Shown: positions 7,528 to 37,051 of the stretch, piece by piece | How positions within the stretch are numbered: the stretch's first letter is position 1 | Layout: every line of letters starts with the position of its first letter | Origin: a virus | Reading direction: 5' to 3' (one strand) | DNA: 37,051 nucleotides | Virus record (IMG/VR): IMGVR_UViG_3300036985_001525 | Span: 1-37,051 of that record | The notes under the pieces: generated by a model | Databases searched by the model: none | The model's input: the letters and a program-made list of their open reading frames with translations, nothing else | Told to the model about the DNA's origin: nothing | Position numbers and translations under genes: made by a program

Positions 7528-8760
7528 TTATTTCTCCTTAATGTGCACCGCTTTACCAGTTGTAGGATTTGCATTTTTATTCCTTACAATAGTCCATAAC
7601 ACAGGGGCTTCCCACTCATCCCCCCACTGAGGCACATACCCATCCGTTAGCATGATGATTGCTTCGGGCTTAATGTTTTTCTCCTTAAGATACTCACACA
7701 CGCACACAGGGTTAGTGCCCCCACCACCCATAGGCTTAGTTGATTTAGCTATGTCGGCAAACGAATACTGGTCATACTCCTCATGCCCTGCCACCTCGCT
7801 ATCCCAATACAATAAGTCTACTTTGCTAGGATGCACCTCATCAGCGATAGCTTGCACTTCGGTTAAGAACTCGTTTAACTCATGCCCACCGATTGAGCCT
7901 GATGTGTCTATGCCGATAACCAAATGCCCTACGCTTTCACCGACTAGGCTAGGTAAATAAACCCCGCTACCTAAAAATCGCCGATTAACTTTGCGCCAGC
8001 TACTAGCATCACGAGCATTACACGTTGCTTTCACAAACTCACGTAGCACCTCACGCCAATCAACCTCAGGCTCTAGCAATTCACCTAGCTCTCGGCTTAG
8101 TCCACCTGCACCACTGCCATATACCTTGTTGTAGGTAATCAGTCCTTGACGTATAGCTTGGTCTACCTCACGTTGTAATGCTTCGGCTTCCTCTTTAGTG
8201 AGATTACCTGCACCCTCCCAATCGTGGTCATCCATACCGCCTTTGCCACCACCATAGCCACCCTCAGGTTCCTCATCTTTAAGTATGTCATACACCTGCT
8301 TCACGTTCATATTTCTGAAGCGTTCATCAAGCAGACCAATAGCCTTACCCTCAAACGTAGGCATCTTAAGTAAACTACCCGTCTTGTCCATGTCCATAAT
8401 CTGCAAGTTAATCACGTAGTCGCAAGCCATGTTCGTTAGCTGTCCATCCTGCTTGGCTAGCCTACTCCACGTAGTCAGATGTCGGTATGCTTTGTGCAAG
8501 GTTTCGTGCAACACTACAAATGTTAGCTCTTTATCATCTAAGCGTTTCACGAACTCACGACCATACATCTCATCACGACCATTGGTGCAAGCAGTTGGCA
8601 CAAAGATACTGTCCGTTATACTTGTCTTACCCACAGTCATCAAGCCCGACCATAAGGCAAACATAGGGTTACGCATAATGCCAATCTTAATCTTACTAAG
8701 TCTGCGTTCCTCTTTGTCCTTGGGCATGGCTTCCTCTGTTGTTACTGCGTTTTGTAACAT
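7528..8760 (-). CDS. VWA-like metallopeptidase-type protein (DUF2201 family)
   Basis: This 410-aa protein has two parts. The N-terminal half has HETLH (85-89), an HExxH zinc-metallopeptidase motif, in FVVLHETLHKAYRH; this is the pattern of DUF2201_N. A Gly-rich linker (about 166-180) follows. The C-terminal half begins HLVIGIDTSGS, with a MIDAS metal site at D285-T-S-G-S289, and ends in a VWA-type domain including a Gly-Gly-Gly-Gly-Thr turn and ML-T-D-G. Cellular relatives pair with MoxR ATPases as chaperone-like complexes, and the MoxR gene is directly upstream here. The start ATG lies inside a GTAACA-N-TGTTAC palindrome, seven bases after AAGGAG. Confidence 0.88.
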   Translation of the reverse strand: MLQNAVTTEEAMPKDKEERRLSKIKIGIMRNPMFALWSGLMTVGKTSITDSIFVPTACTNGRDEMYGREFVKRLDDKELTFVVLHETLHKAYRHLTTWSRLAKQDGQLTNMACDYVINLQIMDMDKTGSLLKMPTFEGKAIGLLDERFRNMNVKQVYDILKDEEPEGGYGGGKGGMDDHDWEGAGNLTKEEAEALQREVDQAIRQGLITYNKVYGSGAGGLSRELGELLEPEVDWREVLREFVKATCNARDASSWRKVNRRFLGSGVYLPSLVGESVGHLVIGIDTSGSIGGHELNEFLTEVQAIADEVHPSKVDLLYWDSEVAGHEEYDQYSFADIAKSTKPMGGGGTNPVCVCEYLKEKNIKPEAIIMLTDGYVPQWGDEWEAPVLWTIVRNKNANPTTGKAVHIKEK

Positions 8761-8771: not shown

Positions 8772-9839
8772 TTATAGTAAATCTTCGTTTTTAGCTACCC
8801 ACTCAGTAAACTTAGTAGAGGCAAATGCCACCGCTTGTTTCTGTGGGTTCTTGGCTATGTTGATTGCAAAACACGCTTGCCACTCAGGATTGAAGCGTTC
8901 CAAGTATTCCATGAATGGATTGATTGCGTCTTTAGTCATCTTAGTGATTGCGCTAAAAATAACGATTGCGCTTGCACCTGCCGTGTCAGGCACAGTAGCG
9001 GTCTTAGGCGAGGAGATGATAGTTCCCCACTCAGGCAGTTGGTCTGAGTAATCTATGTATGCTTGCATATCTCTACTTGCACTCTCTCCGATTGCGCCCG
9101 TCATGGCACAAATTAAGCTGTCGCTATCAATACTCTTACGCTGTTTCACAATGTTACTTACTCGTTCAAGACTGCGAGGCGATACAAAGGCGGTCTGCAT
9201 CTTGCGAGGGTTGTATATGTATGGGTTCTCATCTTGATTGCCCTCAGTATAGCTAGCCAACGCATGAGGGAATTGTCTAACCCATGCAATAACCTCAGGT
9301 GCAATATCATTGTTCAATGCCCACTCAATCCACTCATCAGCATCAGGCTTCCTGACGTTCAACGGGATAATACGATTGCGACTATGTGCTTTCAGGTTAT
9401 CACCTACACCATCACTGGATAGGTTGCCTGTTAGAAAGATAACGCTGTCAGGGTTAATCGGTATATCACCTAAGCGTGGGTTATGCACCTCTAGGGATGG
9501 GTGTAGCATATTCATTACAGGCTGTGCACCCTTAGTGTATTCGTCATACATCATAATGACAGGCTTACCCGTATGTATTTTGAACTGTGCGTTTGGGTAA
9601 TACGCAGTTGTTTTTGTTTCGTGATTGATGACAGGCATAGCGATATCACCCAAGTCCATGTTAGGCACATCAATGTATGCCACCTCATGTGTAGGTAGTT
9701 TGCTACTTATCATTTTCATTAGAGAACTTTTACCAATTCCCGGCTCACCTTGTAATAAGTATCGGTTCATTGGAGTTGCGAGTATGATGTCGCACGCTTG
9801 CTTTAGAGTTACTGATTTACCAAAATTTAATTCAGCCAT
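8772..9839 (-). CDS. MoxR-type AAA+ ATPase
   Basis: This 355-aa AAA+ ATPase has Walker A GEPGIGKS at 31-38, Walker B VIMMYDE at 94-100 and a sensor-1 asparagine in FLTGN (N139). AHSRNR (151-156) is a probable arginine-finger region. MoxR ATPases act as chaperones that activate or assemble partner complexes, usually with a VWA-domain protein encoded next door. The VWA gene here begins 11 bases downstream. AAAGGAAATATC precedes the ATG, and a promoter and a palindrome lie in the 158-bp gap upstream. It may remodel a host or virion complex; the target is unknown. Confidence 0.92.
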   Translation of the reverse strand: MAELNFGKSVTLKQACDIILATPMNRYLLQGEPGIGKSSLMKMISSKLPTHEVAYIDVPNMDLGDIAMPVINHETKTTAYYPNAQFKIHTGKPVIMMYDEYTKGAQPVMNMLHPSLEVHNPRLGDIPINPDSVIFLTGNLSSDGVGDNLKAHSRNRIIPLNVRKPDADEWIEWALNNDIAPEVIAWVRQFPHALASYTEGNQDENPYIYNPRKMQTAFVSPRSLERVSNIVKQRKSIDSDSLICAMTGAIGESASRDMQAYIDYSDQLPEWGTIISSPKTATVPDTAGASAIVIFSAITKMTKDAINPFMEYLERFNPEWQACFAINIAKNPQKQAVAFASTKFTEWVAKNEDLL

Positions 9840-22070: not shown

Positions 22071-22976
22071 ATGGCTATTTCACGCGCACAGCTCCTTAAA
22101 GAGCTATTACCAGGTCTTAACGCATTATTCGGTTTAGAATATGCCCGTTACGGCGAAGAGCACCAAGAGATCTACGAAACTGAAACTTCAGAGCGTAGCT
22201 TCGAAGAAGAAACCAAATTGTCTGGCTTCTCTGCTGCACCAGTTAAAAACGAGGGTTCTGCCATCGCTTATGACAATGCACAAGAAGCATGGACTGCTCG
22301 ATACAACCACGAAACTATTGCTTTGGGCTTCAGCTTAACTGAAGAAGCTATCGAAGATAACTTGTATGACTCATTGTCTGCACGTTATACAAAAGCATTA
22401 GCTCGTGCTATGGCTTACACGAAACAAGTGAAAGCTGCAAGTGTATTGAACAACGGTTTTGACACAGACTACGCAGGTGGCGACGGCGCTGCATTGTTCT
22501 CAGCTACCCACACGTTAGTAGGTGGCGGTTCAAACAGCAACATCCCGACAACTCCAACAGACTTGAACGAAACTTCATTGGAAAATGCTGTTATTCAAAT
22601 CGCTGCTTGGACTGACGAGCGTGGCCTATTGATCGCTGCTAAACCTAAGAAATTGATTGTTCCACCAGCATTGCAATTTACCGCAACTCGCTTGTTGGAA
22701 ACTGAACTTCGTGTATCTACTGCTGATAACGATATCAACGCGATCAAAAACAATGGTTCTATCCCAGAAGGTTATACAATTAACCACTTCTTGACCGATA
22801 CGAATGCATGGTTCTTGACAACTGATGTTCCTAACGGCATGAAACACTTTGTTCGTACTCCATTGAGTCAATCTATGGACGGTGACTTTGACACCGGTAA
22901 CGTTCGCTATAAAGCCCGTGAGCGTTATTCATTCGGCTGGTCAGATCCATTAGGTATGTATGGTTCACAAGGCTAA
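22071..22976 (+). CDS. Major capsid protein (Mu gpT-like)
   Basis: This 301-aa protein begins MAISRAQLLKELLPGLNALF and continues with ETSERSFEEETKLSGFSAAP and IALGFSLTEEAIEDNLYD, the pattern of the Mu gpT-like major head subunit family within the HK97 fold. The C-terminus NVRYKARERYSFGWSDPLG is the usual ending of this family. AAGGAGATAAAAC precedes the ATG and a strong terminator follows the stop, consistent with the most abundant virion protein. Confidence 0.92.
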   Translation: MAISRAQLLKELLPGLNALFGLEYARYGEEHQEIYETETSERSFEEETKLSGFSAAPVKNEGSAIAYDNAQEAWTARYNHETIALGFSLTEEAIEDNLYDSLSARYTKALARAMAYTKQVKAASVLNNGFDTDYAGGDGAALFSATHTLVGGGSNSNIPTTPTDLNETSLENAVIQIAAWTDERGLLIAAKPKKLIVPPALQFTATRLLETELRVSTADNDINAIKNNGSIPEGYTINHFLTDTNAWFLTTDVPNGMKHFVRTPLSQSMDGDFDTGNVRYKARERYSFGWSDPLGMYGSQG

Positions 22977-22993: not shown

Positions 22994-23019
22994 TTAAGGG
23001 GACTTCGGTCCCCTTTTTT
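22994..23019 (+). terminator. Rho-independent terminator after capsid gene
   Basis: AAGGGGAC (22996-23003), a TTCG loop, GTCCCCTT (23008-23015) and a T run. It separates head-gene transcription from the pqqA island. Confidence 0.9.
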
Positions 23020-23069
23020 AATGGTTTTCTGTATTGTAACGTGTACAAAAAAGAGCAGAATGTAAACAC

Positions 23070-23086
23070 ATACACACGGTGTGTAT
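23070..23086 (+). promoter_or_regulatory. Palindrome overlapping a -10-like box upstream of pqqA
   Basis: ATACACAC-G-GTGTGTAT is a 17-bp palindrome whose right arm runs into TATAAA (23084-23089). The best -35 at 17 bp (TGTAAA, 23061-23066) matches only three of six. A regulated promoter or a leader hairpin is possible. AGGAG follows at 23094-23098. Confidence 0.4.
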
Positions 23087-23107
23087 AAAAAACAGGAGAA
23101 TTTGAAC

Positions 23108-23179
23108 ATGTGGACTACACCAGCAGCAACAGAAATGCGTTTTGGTTTTGAAGTAACTATGTACGTAATGAACAAATAA
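23108..23179 (+). CDS. pqqA: PqqA: PQQ precursor peptide (phage-encoded)
   Basis: This 23-residue peptide begins MWTTPAATEM, continues RFGFEVTMY and ends VMNK. PqqA is the substrate from which PQQ is built: the radical SAM enzyme PqqE, with chaperone PqqD, cross-links the Glu and Tyr of the E-x-x-x-Y motif, and later Pqq enzymes finish the cofactor. Here the residues are E15 and Y19, within the R-x-G-F-E-V-T-M-Y core, and the N-terminal W-T-x-P and total length match classical PqqA. ACAGGAGAATTTGAAC provides the ribosome binding site. The gene is flanked by terminators on both sides and has no other pqq gene near it, so it would rely on host PqqB-E. It is on the plus strand between the capsid gene and an HNH gene. 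Confidence 0.93.
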   Translation: MWTTPAATEMRFGFEVTMYVMNK

Positions 23180-23190
23180 GTTATAATACC

Positions 23191-23283
23191 TATGGGTCTG
23201 ACCCAAGAGTTACCCGTAGGGTAGCGAACCCCCCTAATGATTTCGATTATTAGGTGCAAACCCCTTCGGGGGTTTTGCTTTTT
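23191..23283 (+). ncRNA. Four-hairpin structured RNA downstream of pqqA
   Basis: In 93 bases four hairpins follow one another: GGGTC-T-GACCC (23194-23204), TACCC-GTA-GGGTA (23211-23223), a 9-bp stem with a TTCG loop (23233-23254, one G-U pair), and the terminator stem. GGGT of the first and ACCC of the second can also pair, as can the C run at 23229-23234 with the G run at 23268-23272, so alternative folds exist. A TATAAT box lies just upstream (23182-23187) but its -35 is poor. It may be the 3' untranslated end of the pqqA message or a separate small RNA. I do not recognise an RNA family. Confidence 0.45.
23256..23283 (+). terminator. Rho-independent terminator of pqqA transcript
   Basis: GCAAACCCC (23256-23264), TTCG loop, GGGGTTTTGC (23269-23278, one extra T) and five T. 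It ends the pqqA message before the convergent HNH gene. Confidence 0.85.
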
Positions 23284-23370
23284 CAGGCGGTTAAGCCGAC
23301 ACTAGAGGATGTAGTAAGTAACGAGTTTTTCGGCTTTCTGCGTTACATGTAACAACTACCAAATCTACGC
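23284..23370. other. Convergent gap between pqqA terminator and HNH gene
   Basis: No gene. It contains AAGCCGA (23293-23299) complementary to TCGGCTT (23330-23336) and the 12-bp palindrome GTTACATGTAAC (23342-23353). The palindrome has a different base order from the GTAACA-N-TGTTAC sites and I do not count it with them. Confidence 0.4.
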
Positions 23371-23742
23371 CTACTTCTCTGTAATTTGACCCGCCTTTAA
23401 TTGGCGTTCTTCGTGGTGGTGCTTGCGGTGGCAGTTGGCGCATAGTACTATGCACTTTGATTCTATTTCTTCCCTTGCTACCTTATAAGCTCCATTCTGA
23501 GCTAGTTCGCTTATTTTTCTATTAGCTGGGTCTTTTACTAAGTGGTGAAAATCTAATGCAGCTGGGTGGTTCTCACCACAGTTAACGCAGGCTAATGTAG
23601 CTTTGTAAGCTTCCCATTGGGCACGTTTCTTTATCTTACCTAGTCTAACACGCTCTATTTGGGCTGGCTTATTATTATCATAATGCTTCTTTGAATATAT
23701 CTTTGCTTTGGCTTTTCTAACCGCCGGATCTTTAAATGGCAT
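23371..23742 (-). CDS. HNH endonuclease, opposite strand
   Basis: This 123-aa protein begins with a basic helical region (MPFKDPAVRKAKAKIYSKKH). The nuclease has CVNCG (C52, C55), FHHLV (H66, H67) and CANCHRKHH (C101, C104, H105), a zinc-stabilised HNH motif. It is a free-standing gene of homing-endonuclease type. It is the only gene on the minus strand within the late block, lies next to pqqA, and has a poor ribosome binding site. Its N-terminus resembles that of the HNH protein at 28,539 (MP-x-KDP), so the two may share an origin. Confidence 0.88.
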   Translation of the reverse strand: MPFKDPAVRKAKAKIYSKKHYDNNKPAQIERVRLGKIKKRAQWEAYKATLACVNCGENHPAALDFHHLVKDPANRKISELAQNGAYKVAREEIESKCIVLCANCHRKHHHEERQLKAGQITEK

Positions 23743-33741: not shown

Positions 33742-34140
33742 ATGGCAAATCCAAACATCGTCGCCGTAACGAGTATATACGGCAAAACAACATACCTTAC
33801 ACCTAGTGGCACGACTGCTGTGGTGCTTTTACCTAACGCCGCGGCTTCTGGTACAGTCATGAAGATTAATCAGATTGTGGCTGCTAACGTGAATGGCTCA
33901 TCAGCAGTAAACGCAACGGTGTCTATCTACACTAACGGCGCGGTAGCTCAAGGCTCTGCACCTAGTGGTGGTACAGCATACCCAGTCACAAGTACAATTT
34001 CCGTGCCTGCTAATGCCTCATTAATTGTTGCAGATAAAACAACAGCGATATACCTAGAAGAAGGTACATCAATCACGGTGACTTCAGGTACAGCTAGCGG
34101 CATTACATACTCAGTGAGTTATGAATTAATCGCGGCGTAG
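33742..34140 (+). CDS. Small virion beta protein (132 aa)
   Basis: It reads MANPNIVAVTSIYGKTTYLT, then a Thr/Ala/Val-rich beta fold with MKINQIVAANVNGSSAVNAT and YLEEGTSITVTSGTASGITY. I recall this type from phage structural modules between fibre genes. It probably forms a small trimeric or sheath component. Function not established. Confidence 0.7.
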   Translation: MANPNIVAVTSIYGKTTYLTPSGTTAVVLLPNAAASGTVMKINQIVAANVNGSSAVNATVSIYTNGAVAQGSAPSGGTAYPVTSTISVPANASLIVADKTTAIYLEEGTSITVTSGTASGITYSVSYELIAA

Positions 34141-34149
34141 GATAATTTT

Positions 34150-35538
34150 ATGTCAATGCGCTATTTAGGTGGGTTCATCTCAGCCTCGTATAACCCTTTG
34201 AAGGTGCCTAATGCGCCAACGATAGGAACCGTTACGGCTGGTAACGCACAAGTCTCTGTTGCCTTCACTGCCCCATCTAATGTTGGCGGTGGTGCTATCA
34301 CATCCTACCAAGTGCTTGTCCGTGATTCTTCTACTGGCGCTACCTTTACAGGTACAGGTTCCGCATCCCCTGTTGTAGTGACGGGCTTAACTAACGGTAA
34401 CACCTACACAGCACAAGTAGCGGCAATAAACTCTTACGGCCCTAGTGCATTTAGCGCAACGAGTGGAGCGGTAATCCCTGCCATAACATATAATTTATAC
34501 ACGTGGGGTCAAAATACTTTTGGTCAATTAGGTCACAACAATACAATTTCTCGTTCATCTCCAGTACAAGTAGGGAGTGGGTCAATATGGCTTAATGTTG
34601 GAACTGGTTATAATGGTACAGTTGCAACTAAACCAGACGGCACGTTATGGGCTTGGGGAACTAACAACAACGGGCAATTAGGCCAAAATAATTTAGTTTA
34701 TCGCTCATCTCCAGTACAAATAGGTGCACTCACCACATGGTTGAATGTGAGTTCTGGTTCATATGCAAATCTAGCAACTAGAACCGACGGCACTTTATGG
34801 TCTTGGGGTAATAATGATCAAGGTCAATTAGGTCAAGGTGATTTAGTTAACCGTTCATCCCCAGTGCAAGTTGGTGCATTAACCACATGGCTTAATATAG
34901 CAGCTGGGTTTACTCACACTATCGCCACTAAAACAGACGGTACGCTTTGGACTTGGGGTCGGAACAGTAGTGGACAATTGGGTAAAAATGATACCATAGA
35001 GCGTTCATCTCCTGTACAAGTTGGCGCTCTTACAGATTGGGCTCAAGTAGCTGCTGGAACGTATTTCTGTGTAGCTATTAAAACTAATGGTACGTTATGG
35101 GCATGGGGTAATAATAATTCTGGTCAATTAGGTATAGGAAGTTTAGTTTATAAATCATCTCCAGTGCAAGTAGGTAGTTTAACTACATGGAATATTATTG
35201 CAGCAGGGGGAAGAACTACGAATGCAATCAAAACAGACGGCACTTTATGGTCGTGGGGTAGAAATGCAGAGGGTCAACTAGGACAAAATAATACAACTAA
35301 TCAATCATCTCCAATTCAAGTTGGCGCAGGAAATACATGGCTGAATGTAAAATGTAGTTTCCTATCAACTATCGCAACTAAAACAGGCGGCACTTTATGG
35401 TCCTGGGGCGCAAACAACTTTGGTCAATTAGGTCAAAATGATGTAGTGTACCGTTCTTCCCCAGTCCAAGTGGGCTCAGGAAATACATGGTTAAAAATAT
35501 CGTGTGGGTATAAACACACTATAGCTACCTCGTCTTAA
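34150..35538 (+). CDS. Fibronectin III + RCC1-type beta-propeller fibre protein (462 aa)
   Basis: After a short N-terminus, residues about 17-113 form a fibronectin type III domain (PNAPTIGTVTAGNAQVSVAF, then ITSYQVLVRD and TYTAQVAAINSYGPS). Residues about 116-460 contain seven RCC1-type repeats of roughly 50 residues. Each has a WxWG-x-N-x-x-GQLG core (YTWGQNTFGQLG, WAWGTNNNGQLG, WSWGNNDQGQLG, WTWGRNSSGQLG, WAWGNNNSGQLG, WSWGRNAEGQLG, WSWGANNFGQLG) and SSPVQVG. Seven repeats make one complete propeller. Such propellers bind proteins or glycans, so receptor binding is inferred. Confidence 0.88.
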   Translation: MSMRYLGGFISASYNPLKVPNAPTIGTVTAGNAQVSVAFTAPSNVGGGAITSYQVLVRDSSTGATFTGTGSASPVVVTGLTNGNTYTAQVAAINSYGPSAFSATSGAVIPAITYNLYTWGQNTFGQLGHNNTISRSSPVQVGSGSIWLNVGTGYNGTVATKPDGTLWAWGTNNNGQLGQNNLVYRSSPVQIGALTTWLNVSSGSYANLATRTDGTLWSWGNNDQGQLGQGDLVNRSSPVQVGALTTWLNIAAGFTHTIATKTDGTLWTWGRNSSGQLGKNDTIERSSPVQVGALTDWAQVAAGTYFCVAIKTNGTLWAWGNNNSGQLGIGSLVYKSSPVQVGSLTTWNIIAAGGRTTNAIKTDGTLWSWGRNAEGQLGQNNTTNQSSPIQVGAGNTWLNVKCSFLSTIATKTGGTLWSWGANNFGQLGQNDVVYRSSPVQVGSGNTWLKISCGYKHTIATSS

Positions 35539-35550
35539 GGAAACAAAAGA

Positions 35551-36693
35551 ATGCCAAATTTTAGCGGAATATGGACACTACAAGCGCAGATGCAAGCGCA
35601 AGGCGCAAATAACTGGCAATTGCCACCAAGTAATTTGTATGCTTGGGGGCAAAATAATGTGGGTCAAGTTGGGGATTTGACTACAGTTAATAGGTCTAGT
35701 CCAGTCAATATTGGCTCTGGTTCTAATTGGTCTAGCGTTGCAGGAACAAAAGGCACCATGGCTTTTGCTTTAAAATCAAATGGCACTCTATGGAGTTGGG
35801 GGTATAATCCAAATGGGCAACTGGGTCAAAACGATAGAGTTGATCGATCATCTCCAGTACAAGTAGGGGCGGATACTAATTGGTCAACTGCGGCAGGGGG
35901 AGATTATCATGCTACATTTATTAAGACTACTGGGACTTTATGGTTATGCGGACGTAATAATTACGGGCAGCTAGGTCAAAATGATTTAGTTTATCGCTCA
36001 TCACCTACGCAAGTAGGGTCTTTGACTACTTGGTCTAAATCAACGGCAGGTCAAAATAATACTGTAGCAATTAAAACAGACGGCACTCTATGGAGTTGGG
36101 GATACAATGGTTATGGTGAATTAGGCCAAAATAATAGAATATATCGTTCCTCTCCCGTGCAAGTAGGGGCTTTAACTACATGGTCTCAAGTGGCCGCAGG
36201 GGGGTTGCATGTAATTGCTACTCAAACAGACGGATCATTATGGTCATGGGGATTAAACAATAGCGGACAGTTAGGCCAAAATATTGCGTATACTGTTAAT
36301 CGCTCATCTCCTGTACAGATTGGTGCTTTGACTACGTGGTTGAATGTGTCTTGTGGATATTATCATTCTATCGCTACAAAAACAGACGGCACTTTGTGGG
36401 CATGGGGTTATAATAATTATGGTCAATTAGGTGATGGCACTGTGATTAGTCGCTCATCTCCTGTTCAAATTGGTGCCTTGACTACTTGGTCTAAATTTTC
36501 AGGTGGATATAATTTTACTAGCACAATTAAAACAGACGGAACCCTTTGGTCATGGGGTAGAAATAATAATGGTCAATTAGGTCAAAACATAGCAACTACA
36601 GTTAGTCGTTCATCGCCAGTACAAGTAGGGTCTAATACTAATTGGGTTAACACATCTTCAAATAGCAATACTGTCTTAGCAACCACTTCTTAA
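35551..36693 (+). CDS. RCC1-type beta-propeller protein (380 aa)
   Basis: A second seven-repeat propeller, directly downstream of the first. Its cores are YAWGQNNVGQVG, WSWGYNPNGQLG, WLCGRNNYGQLG, WSWGYNGYGELG, WSWGLNNSGQLG, WAWGYNNYGQLG and WSWGRNNNGQLG. It lacks the fibronectin domain and instead has a short N-terminus (MPNFSGIWTLQAQMQAQGAN), which resembles tips of phage fibres. The third blade (WLCG) has lost the second Trp. It is a paralogue of the preceding gene by tandem duplication. A role in the adhesion apparatus is inferred. Confidence 0.88.
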   Translation: MPNFSGIWTLQAQMQAQGANNWQLPPSNLYAWGQNNVGQVGDLTTVNRSSPVNIGSGSNWSSVAGTKGTMAFALKSNGTLWSWGYNPNGQLGQNDRVDRSSPVQVGADTNWSTAAGGDYHATFIKTTGTLWLCGRNNYGQLGQNDLVYRSSPTQVGSLTTWSKSTAGQNNTVAIKTDGTLWSWGYNGYGELGQNNRIYRSSPVQVGALTTWSQVAAGGLHVIATQTDGSLWSWGLNNSGQLGQNIAYTVNRSSPVQIGALTTWLNVSCGYYHSIATKTDGTLWAWGYNNYGQLGDGTVISRSSPVQIGALTTWSKFSGGYNFTSTIKTDGTLWSWGRNNNGQLGQNIATTVSRSSPVQVGSNTNWVNTSSNSNTVLATTS

Positions 36694-36701
36694 AAGACAA
36701 A

Positions 36702-37051
36702 ATGAAAAACATATACTTCTTATCAGGACTTCCTCGCTCTGGCTCAACAGTCTTAGCTGCAATCTTGAGTCAAAATCCAGAAGTGCATACCACCGCTACC
36801 TCTGGCCTACTAGATATGCTTGTCGGTACATTAAGAGCATGGGCTGACTCAATGTCAGTTCAAGCGACGCCAGACAAAGCTAAGTCAGAAGCAGAGATAC
36901 AGCGTATATTAAGAAACATCTGCGAATCTAAGTACGAGGACGTAAGCAAGTCTATCATCCTAGATAAAGCTCGTGGCTGGGCGTCTGACGTCAACATCCC
37001 AACGATGGCTAAGGTCTTAGGACACAAGCCAAAGATTATAGCGACTGTTCG
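36702..37051 (+). CDS. Sulfotransferase family protein, N-terminal part (runs off window)
   Basis: The ATG at 36702 opens a frame that is unbroken to the window end (116 codons). It begins MKNIYFLSGLPRSGSTVLAA, and the LSGLPRSGSTVL loop is the 5'-phosphosulfate-binding (PAPS) motif of sulfotransferases. The following TATSGLLDMLVGTLRAWADS and the ending KIIATVR, a typical strand before the 3'-phosphate site, agree. These enzymes move sulfate from PAPS to hydroxyl groups of glycans, lipids or proteins. Phage examples are known, but their targets mostly are not. The weak ribosome binding site and downstream location after the propellers suggest it modifies a surface structure or competes in host sulfur metabolism. 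Confidence 0.85.
   Translation, partial: MKNIYFLSGLPRSGSTVLAAILSQNPEVHTTATSGLLDMLVGTLRAWADSMSVQATPDKAKSEAEIQRILRNICESKYEDVSKSIILDKARGWASDVNIPTMAKVLGHKPKIIATV

Follow-up and report, generated by a model that had tools for sequence, protein, structure and literature searches.

A stand-alone pqqA gene in a tailed phage of Methylophilaceae and its occurrence across methylophages

What might a phage gain from the gene for PqqA, the precursor peptide of the cofactor pyrroloquinoline quinone (PQQ), when it carries no other gene of the pathway? The question is raised by IMG/VR record IMGVR_UViG_3300036985_001525, a stretch of 37,051 bases (hereafter the window), in which an open reading frame (ORF) for a 23-residue peptide stands between head and tail genes, without a pqqBCDE set. 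Matches to terminase, portal, major head protein and DNA polymerase identify the window as phage DNA, and it is the genome of a lytic-type tailed phage of Methylophilaceae, which are obligate or near-obligate methylotrophs.

The ORF (23108-23179 including the stop codon, plus strand) runs from an ATG at 23108 to a TAA at 23177-23179, is 72 bp long, and encodes the peptide MWTTPAATEMRFGFEVTMYVMNK. An earlier interpretation made without database searches (the sequence-only reading) had taken this peptide for PqqA, and both family models agree, with scores far over their cut-offs: Pfam PF08042 gives 40.3 bits against a cut-off of 21.1 (E 3e-10, model positions 1-19 of 19), and the NCBIfam equivalog TIGR02107 gives 38.8 bits against a cut-off of 20 (E 5.6e-10, positions 1-21 of 21). 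PqqE joins Glu15 and Tyr19 of PqqA, a reaction reportedly described by Barr and colleagues in 2016 (cited in PMC7678222), among others, and both residues are present in the window peptide with the ExxxY spacing. A search of PHROGs returned no PqqA family for the peptide, and a search of the sequences of solved structures returned no match. Since the family scores are joined by conservation in a variety of gene contexts across more than 100 other viral contigs, a chance origin of the ORF is excluded, and comparison of sequences thus confirms it as a genuine pqqA gene.

The sequence-only reading had also described a single pqq gene with its own ribosome binding site and a terminator on either side, and each of these points held up. 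Apart from the window ORF nothing in the whole record matches PqqA, a PqqE search of the record found nothing, and the location near pqqBCDE that is usual for PqqA, although not defining, is not seen here. A ribosome binding site, AGGAGA, lies at 23094-23099 (plus strand). The terminator scan placed one intrinsic terminator at 22996-23015 (feature 22996-23019, plus strand), where it closes the major head gene that precedes pqqA, and a second as a hairpin at 23258-23275, downstream of pqqA (two found around the gene, compared with 0.9 expected in shuffled sequences).

To learn how widely viral genomes carry the gene, we scanned viral contigs with degenerate DNA patterns. At least 120 contigs matched, and all 120 matches listed were PqqA ORFs of 23-25 residues, surrounded by dozens of different neighbour contexts. 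Because this first scan fixed several residues, it was repeated with residues 15, 18 and 19 left free; E15 and Y19 were kept in all 120 matches listed (of at least 120), as the sequence-only reading had anticipated, and residue 18 varied (M in 113, L in 7). One copy missed by both patterns (MAWTKPSATEHRIGFEITCYAMCR, contig L407) likewise retains the Glu and the Tyr (EITCY). A four-base motif resembling a ribosome binding site lies at the right distance from the start codon in 127 of 127 phage copies, compared with 5.7% at control positions. Across 106 distinct phage pqqA DNA sequences, mean synonymous divergence (pS) is 0.58 and mean nonsynonymous divergence (pN) is 0.10, a pN/pS of 0.18, and this substitution pattern shows purifying selection on the encoded protein. 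No PqqE scored above the cut-off in 50 pqqA-bearing phage records. One phage contig of 72,356 bases (L053, also G036) carries, together with pqqA, a gene at 34049-35731 for a PQQ-dependent alcohol dehydrogenase of the methanol/ethanol dehydrogenase family (608 bits).

In several viral contigs (L011, L021, L026, L032, L033 and L036) the PqqA variants differ from the Methylophilaceae form, which suggests that phages of other PQQ-making hosts may also carry PqqA. Contig L242 (CAKZOO010000028.1), binned as Flavobacteriaceae, combines MEP301-like phage genes with a Methylophilaceae-type pqqA and is likely a misbinned methylophage contig.

The gene is also present in cultured phages. When 50,697 phage records were searched in translation, a PqqA ORF turned up in nine of the nine records of Methylophilales or Methylophilaceae phage isolates in the collection (P19250A, Venkman, MEP301, MEP401, MEP402 and four Melnitz records), a count that leaves out MEP431-434, HIM624-A and Venkman EXVC038S, which are known from taxonomy and were not seen in the collection. 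The carriers span unrelated groups, namely P19250A- and Venkman-type phages, MEP301, MEP401/402 of the Zobellviridae and the T4-like Melnitz phages, and the position of pqqA differs between them. None of the nine ORFs is annotated as PqqA, which bears out the expectation that so small a gene would be overlooked by gene callers. The P19250A peptide (KX815270.1, 28085-28153) is 100% identical to that of the window; when the regions were opened, P19250A, MEP301, Venkman and MEP402 proved to have no annotated feature at pqqA, and in Melnitz-1 and Manatee Spring phage ctXG6705 a "hypothetical protein" is annotated there on the other strand.

The window peptide is also the commonest Methylophilaceae host form, accounting for 63 of the 130 host copies that we recovered with a Methylophilaceae-type pattern. 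Phage and host pqqA are about 92-94% identical in DNA sequence. Stand-alone copies are common in Methylophilaceae; the 18 host genomes carry 1-12 copies each, in line with the 3-12 copies reported beside single pqqBCDE sets (PMC4109929). The bacterial PqqA of Methylophilaceae has the same length, sequence and Glu15/Tyr19 pair and is kept by its hosts in multiple copies (PMC4109929), whereas the window copy is the only one in its phage, has its own 5' region and terminators, and lacks pqqBCDE. Within the lineage defined by the window's major head protein, mean guanine-plus-cytosine content is 40% in pqqA carriers compared with 49% in non-carriers, and of 70 close head-protein relatives whose downstream sequence is long enough, only 3 have pqqA behind the head gene. 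The compositional split and the low count among relatives together indicate that pqqA tracks the host and not the phage lineage. The sequence-only reading had proposed looking for the same ORF after the capsid gene in related phages: the ORF is indeed kept, in more than 100 viral contigs, but its place behind the head gene is not, and we rejected the idea that it always follows the capsid gene in the window's lineage, given the many contexts seen elsewhere.

A host-type metabolic gene in bona fide phages, as hallmark genes, isolates and host homologues indicate, whose protein is maintained by selection, has the properties of an auxiliary metabolic gene, and we consider it probable that phage pqqA feeds precursor into the PQQ pathway of the host during infection. 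The phage would make the 23-residue peptide while infecting; host PqqD and PqqE would take it up and join Glu15 to Tyr19 by a cross-link; the host pathway would complete PQQ from it; and the added PQQ would keep the methanol dehydrogenases (XoxF/MxaF), and so the supply of energy and formaldehyde, going while particles are produced. Because one PqqA is used per PQQ, and PqqA is the sole pathway component that hosts keep in multiple copies, the cheap 72-bp gene could be worth carrying by itself. Cyanophage photosystem genes such as psbA offer a parallel, being phage copies of a rapidly consumed host component that sustain host energy metabolism. PqqA is likewise a rapidly consumed host component borne by a phage, but unlike the psbA product it is a 23-residue cofactor precursor rather than an enzyme subunit, and it is too short for usual gene calling.

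Several points weigh against this interpretation. Expression of phage pqqA, processing of the peptide by host enzymes and an advantage for the phage are steps that we infer. Hosts already own up to a dozen pqqA copies, and the benefit of one more is not obvious. The host of the window phage was assigned from its peptide type and base composition rather than through CRISPR (clustered regularly interspaced short palindromic repeats) or culture. Both viral scans give lower bounds, from which no fraction of the whole collection follows, and the conservation counts of the first scan are circular for the residues that its pattern fixed (W, P, G, E, V, T and Y). The proposal is directly testable, since cultured phage-host pairs already carry pqqA: Venkman on H5P1, MEP301 and MEP401/402 on FZCC strains, and P19250A on IMCC19250.

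The idea of a phage PqqA is not new. In 2020, PqqA was named in the Lake Baikal methylophage contig VP_266, a T4-like phage from one population, and was proposed to support methanol oxidation by Methylophilaceae; methanol dehydrogenase was reported in the same Baikal phage populations, and P19250A was said to encode none of the putative auxiliary metabolic genes of that study (PMC7678222). Our data differ in that P19250A has an identical, unannotated PqqA and in that the gene is present in every methylophage isolate record seen; the contig with both pqqA and an alcohol dehydrogenase gene echoes the VP_266 report. A 2026 survey of reservoir sediments lists viral pqqA, pqqD and pqqE among auxiliary genes and frames them as phosphate solubilization (PMC13188868), and the accessible part of that survey contains no peptide-level or comparative analysis. 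A text search of the open-access literature found no mention of phage PqqA in the papers on Venkman, MEP301, MEP401/402 and Melnitz, although other reports may exist. What appears to be new, therefore, is the near-universality of the gene and the fact that it was missed: a near-universal auxiliary gene was overlooked because it is only 72 bp long. If the proposed role is correct, PQQ precursor supply would be a common target of phages that kill methanol-oxidizing bacteria in lakes and seas.

The sequences on either side of pqqA bear on how the gene might be controlled. About 85 nucleotides on its 5' side are kept across phage contigs that have different upstream genes (alignment A4); in the window this region, a presumed promoter/operator, is 23019-23107 (plus strand). 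A scan of it found no sigma-70-like promoter. Upstream of the ribosome binding site it contains a perfect dyad, ATACACACGGTGTGTAT (23070-23086), whose arms partly co-vary in the alignment and which is possibly an operator. The conserved 5' side with its dyad suggests that pqqA travels with its own control region.

Downstream of pqqA lies a structured RNA that the sequence-only reading had not mentioned. The element (23284-23373, plus strand) is 90 nucleotides long and is matched at up to 99% identity in phages with pqqA genes that are only 80-89% identical. Sixteen representatives define a structure of five helices with a pseudoknot, in which 99.3% of alignment cells pair, compared with 32-48% in slid controls, and both sides change in 16 of 27 pairs. 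In an alignment that includes the divergent copies L083 and L104, and that was fitted to the nested model rather than to the pseudoknot, 19 of 27 pairs co-vary, including 4 of the 7 pseudoknot pairs. The 16 representatives contain eight G-U cells and zero A-C cells, which places the RNA on the pqqA strand. When the window was compared with Rfam at E<=1, no family matched, and the elements of divergent copies likewise had no Rfam match. These data support a new, previously undescribed structured RNA family with strong covariation support.

Patterns blind to pqqA recovered 125 copies of this RNA, and 69 of them begin between -3 and +197 nucleotides from the stop codon of a pqqA gene that lies on the same strand; the first 51 of these pqqA-adjacent copies represent four or more unrelated gene contexts. 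One divergent clade has the RNA beginning at the stop codon itself, usually with an intrinsic terminator behind it, so that there it is the 3' untranslated region of pqqA. In the window, by contrast, a terminator separates the two, and co-transcription would therefore need read-through. The stretch that ends in this terminator (23190-23280, plus strand) is itself structured (fold z -3.6), is an insertion relative to phages that have the RNA directly after pqqA, and shows no conservation beside pqqA of other phages; we rejected it as a separate small RNA, as the terminator hairpin explains much of the fold.

Copies elsewhere follow genes other than pqqA. Four contigs (L476, L483, L487 and L489) have the element and no pqqA in the DNA examined, and in L476 it comes right after a major head gene of the type found in the window, behind that gene's terminator. 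In another group (L062, L118, L382, L386 and about 20 relatives) the RNA begins 40-44 nucleotides after a conserved gene for a 60-residue protein (MAISAQQICDHLVGKTVVSAELDYGDNI...), and in many of these pqqA lies 1.4-2.2 kb beyond it. No convincing match to the RNA was found in host pqqA loci, in head-protein relatives, in phage records searched by blastn, or in 18 host genomes and six phage records, where an empty answer proves little; RNA models at looser thresholds yielded no intermediate members. Our guess is that the RNA is a 3'-end element of phages that perhaps protects mRNA or senses a ligand. An arrangement that we offer tentatively, and that may well not hold, is a mobile methylophage cassette made up of the conserved 5' region, pqqA, in one large group the pseudoknotted RNA at or soon after the stop codon, and in one clade then a terminator, with the RNA controlling the lifetime of pqqA mRNA or sensing PQQ or a related ligand and thereby tuning precursor supply.

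The conserved 5' region and the 69 copies of the covarying RNA that come directly after pqqA could instead mean that the transcript (5' dyad, 3' pseudoknotted RNA) or the peptide regulates phage or host genes in a role separate from PQQ. We consider this unlikely, as selection acts on the amino acids (pN/pS as given above) and the RNA is missing from most phage pqqA loci and occurs without pqqA. A lone precursor without other pathway genes would also fit a decoy or brake that competes for PqqD and PqqE without yielding PQQ, or floods the pathway, and so shifts host redox in the phage's favor; yet a decoy could freely lose Glu15 and Tyr19, which are invariant in the matches listed, and the peptide matches the commonest host form exactly, making this reading decidedly improbable. 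The host-identical peptide and high DNA identity to host copies are what a neutral passenger lately acquired from the host would show, but saturated synonymous change among 106 distinct sequences with the protein conserved contradicts neutrality, as does the pN/pS ratio, and carriage by unrelated phage groups and by all isolates seen leaves very little room for it. Bacterial contamination or misbinning does occur, as in the Acinetobacter "phage" MD-2021a (L008, CAKLQF020000010.1), which we rejected as a mislabelled entry of the phage collection that is plainly bacterial and contains pqqABCDE, but as an explanation of phage pqqA it has next to no plausibility and is refuted by the isolates grown as pure phages, with terminase, portal and head genes surrounding the window pqqA and virtually no flanking genes common to viral and bacterial pqqA loci. 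The supply of precursor to the host pathway thus remains our favored role for phage pqqA, and the PqqA interpretation of the sequence-only reading is supported by the comparisons made here.

The genes next to this locus are the major head protein gene that lies shortly before pqqA (22071-22976, plus strand; phrog_371, E 1.8e-22) and, convergent with pqqA and directly after the RNA element, a gene for a small HNH-like protein (23371-23742, minus strand), recognized by eye from an NCHRKHHHE motif and without a Pfam match. Elsewhere in the window (7528-8760 and 8772-9839, minus strand), a protein that PHROGs labels "HNH endonuclease" reads more like a VWA protein, with a DTSGS motif, and has an ATPase as its neighbour; the label looks wrong. 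Two adjacent proteins rich in RCC1-like WSWGxNxxGQLG repeats are encoded at the genome's tail end (34150-36693, plus strand), and a sulfotransferase-like ORF follows them at 36702, all of them recognized by eye only.
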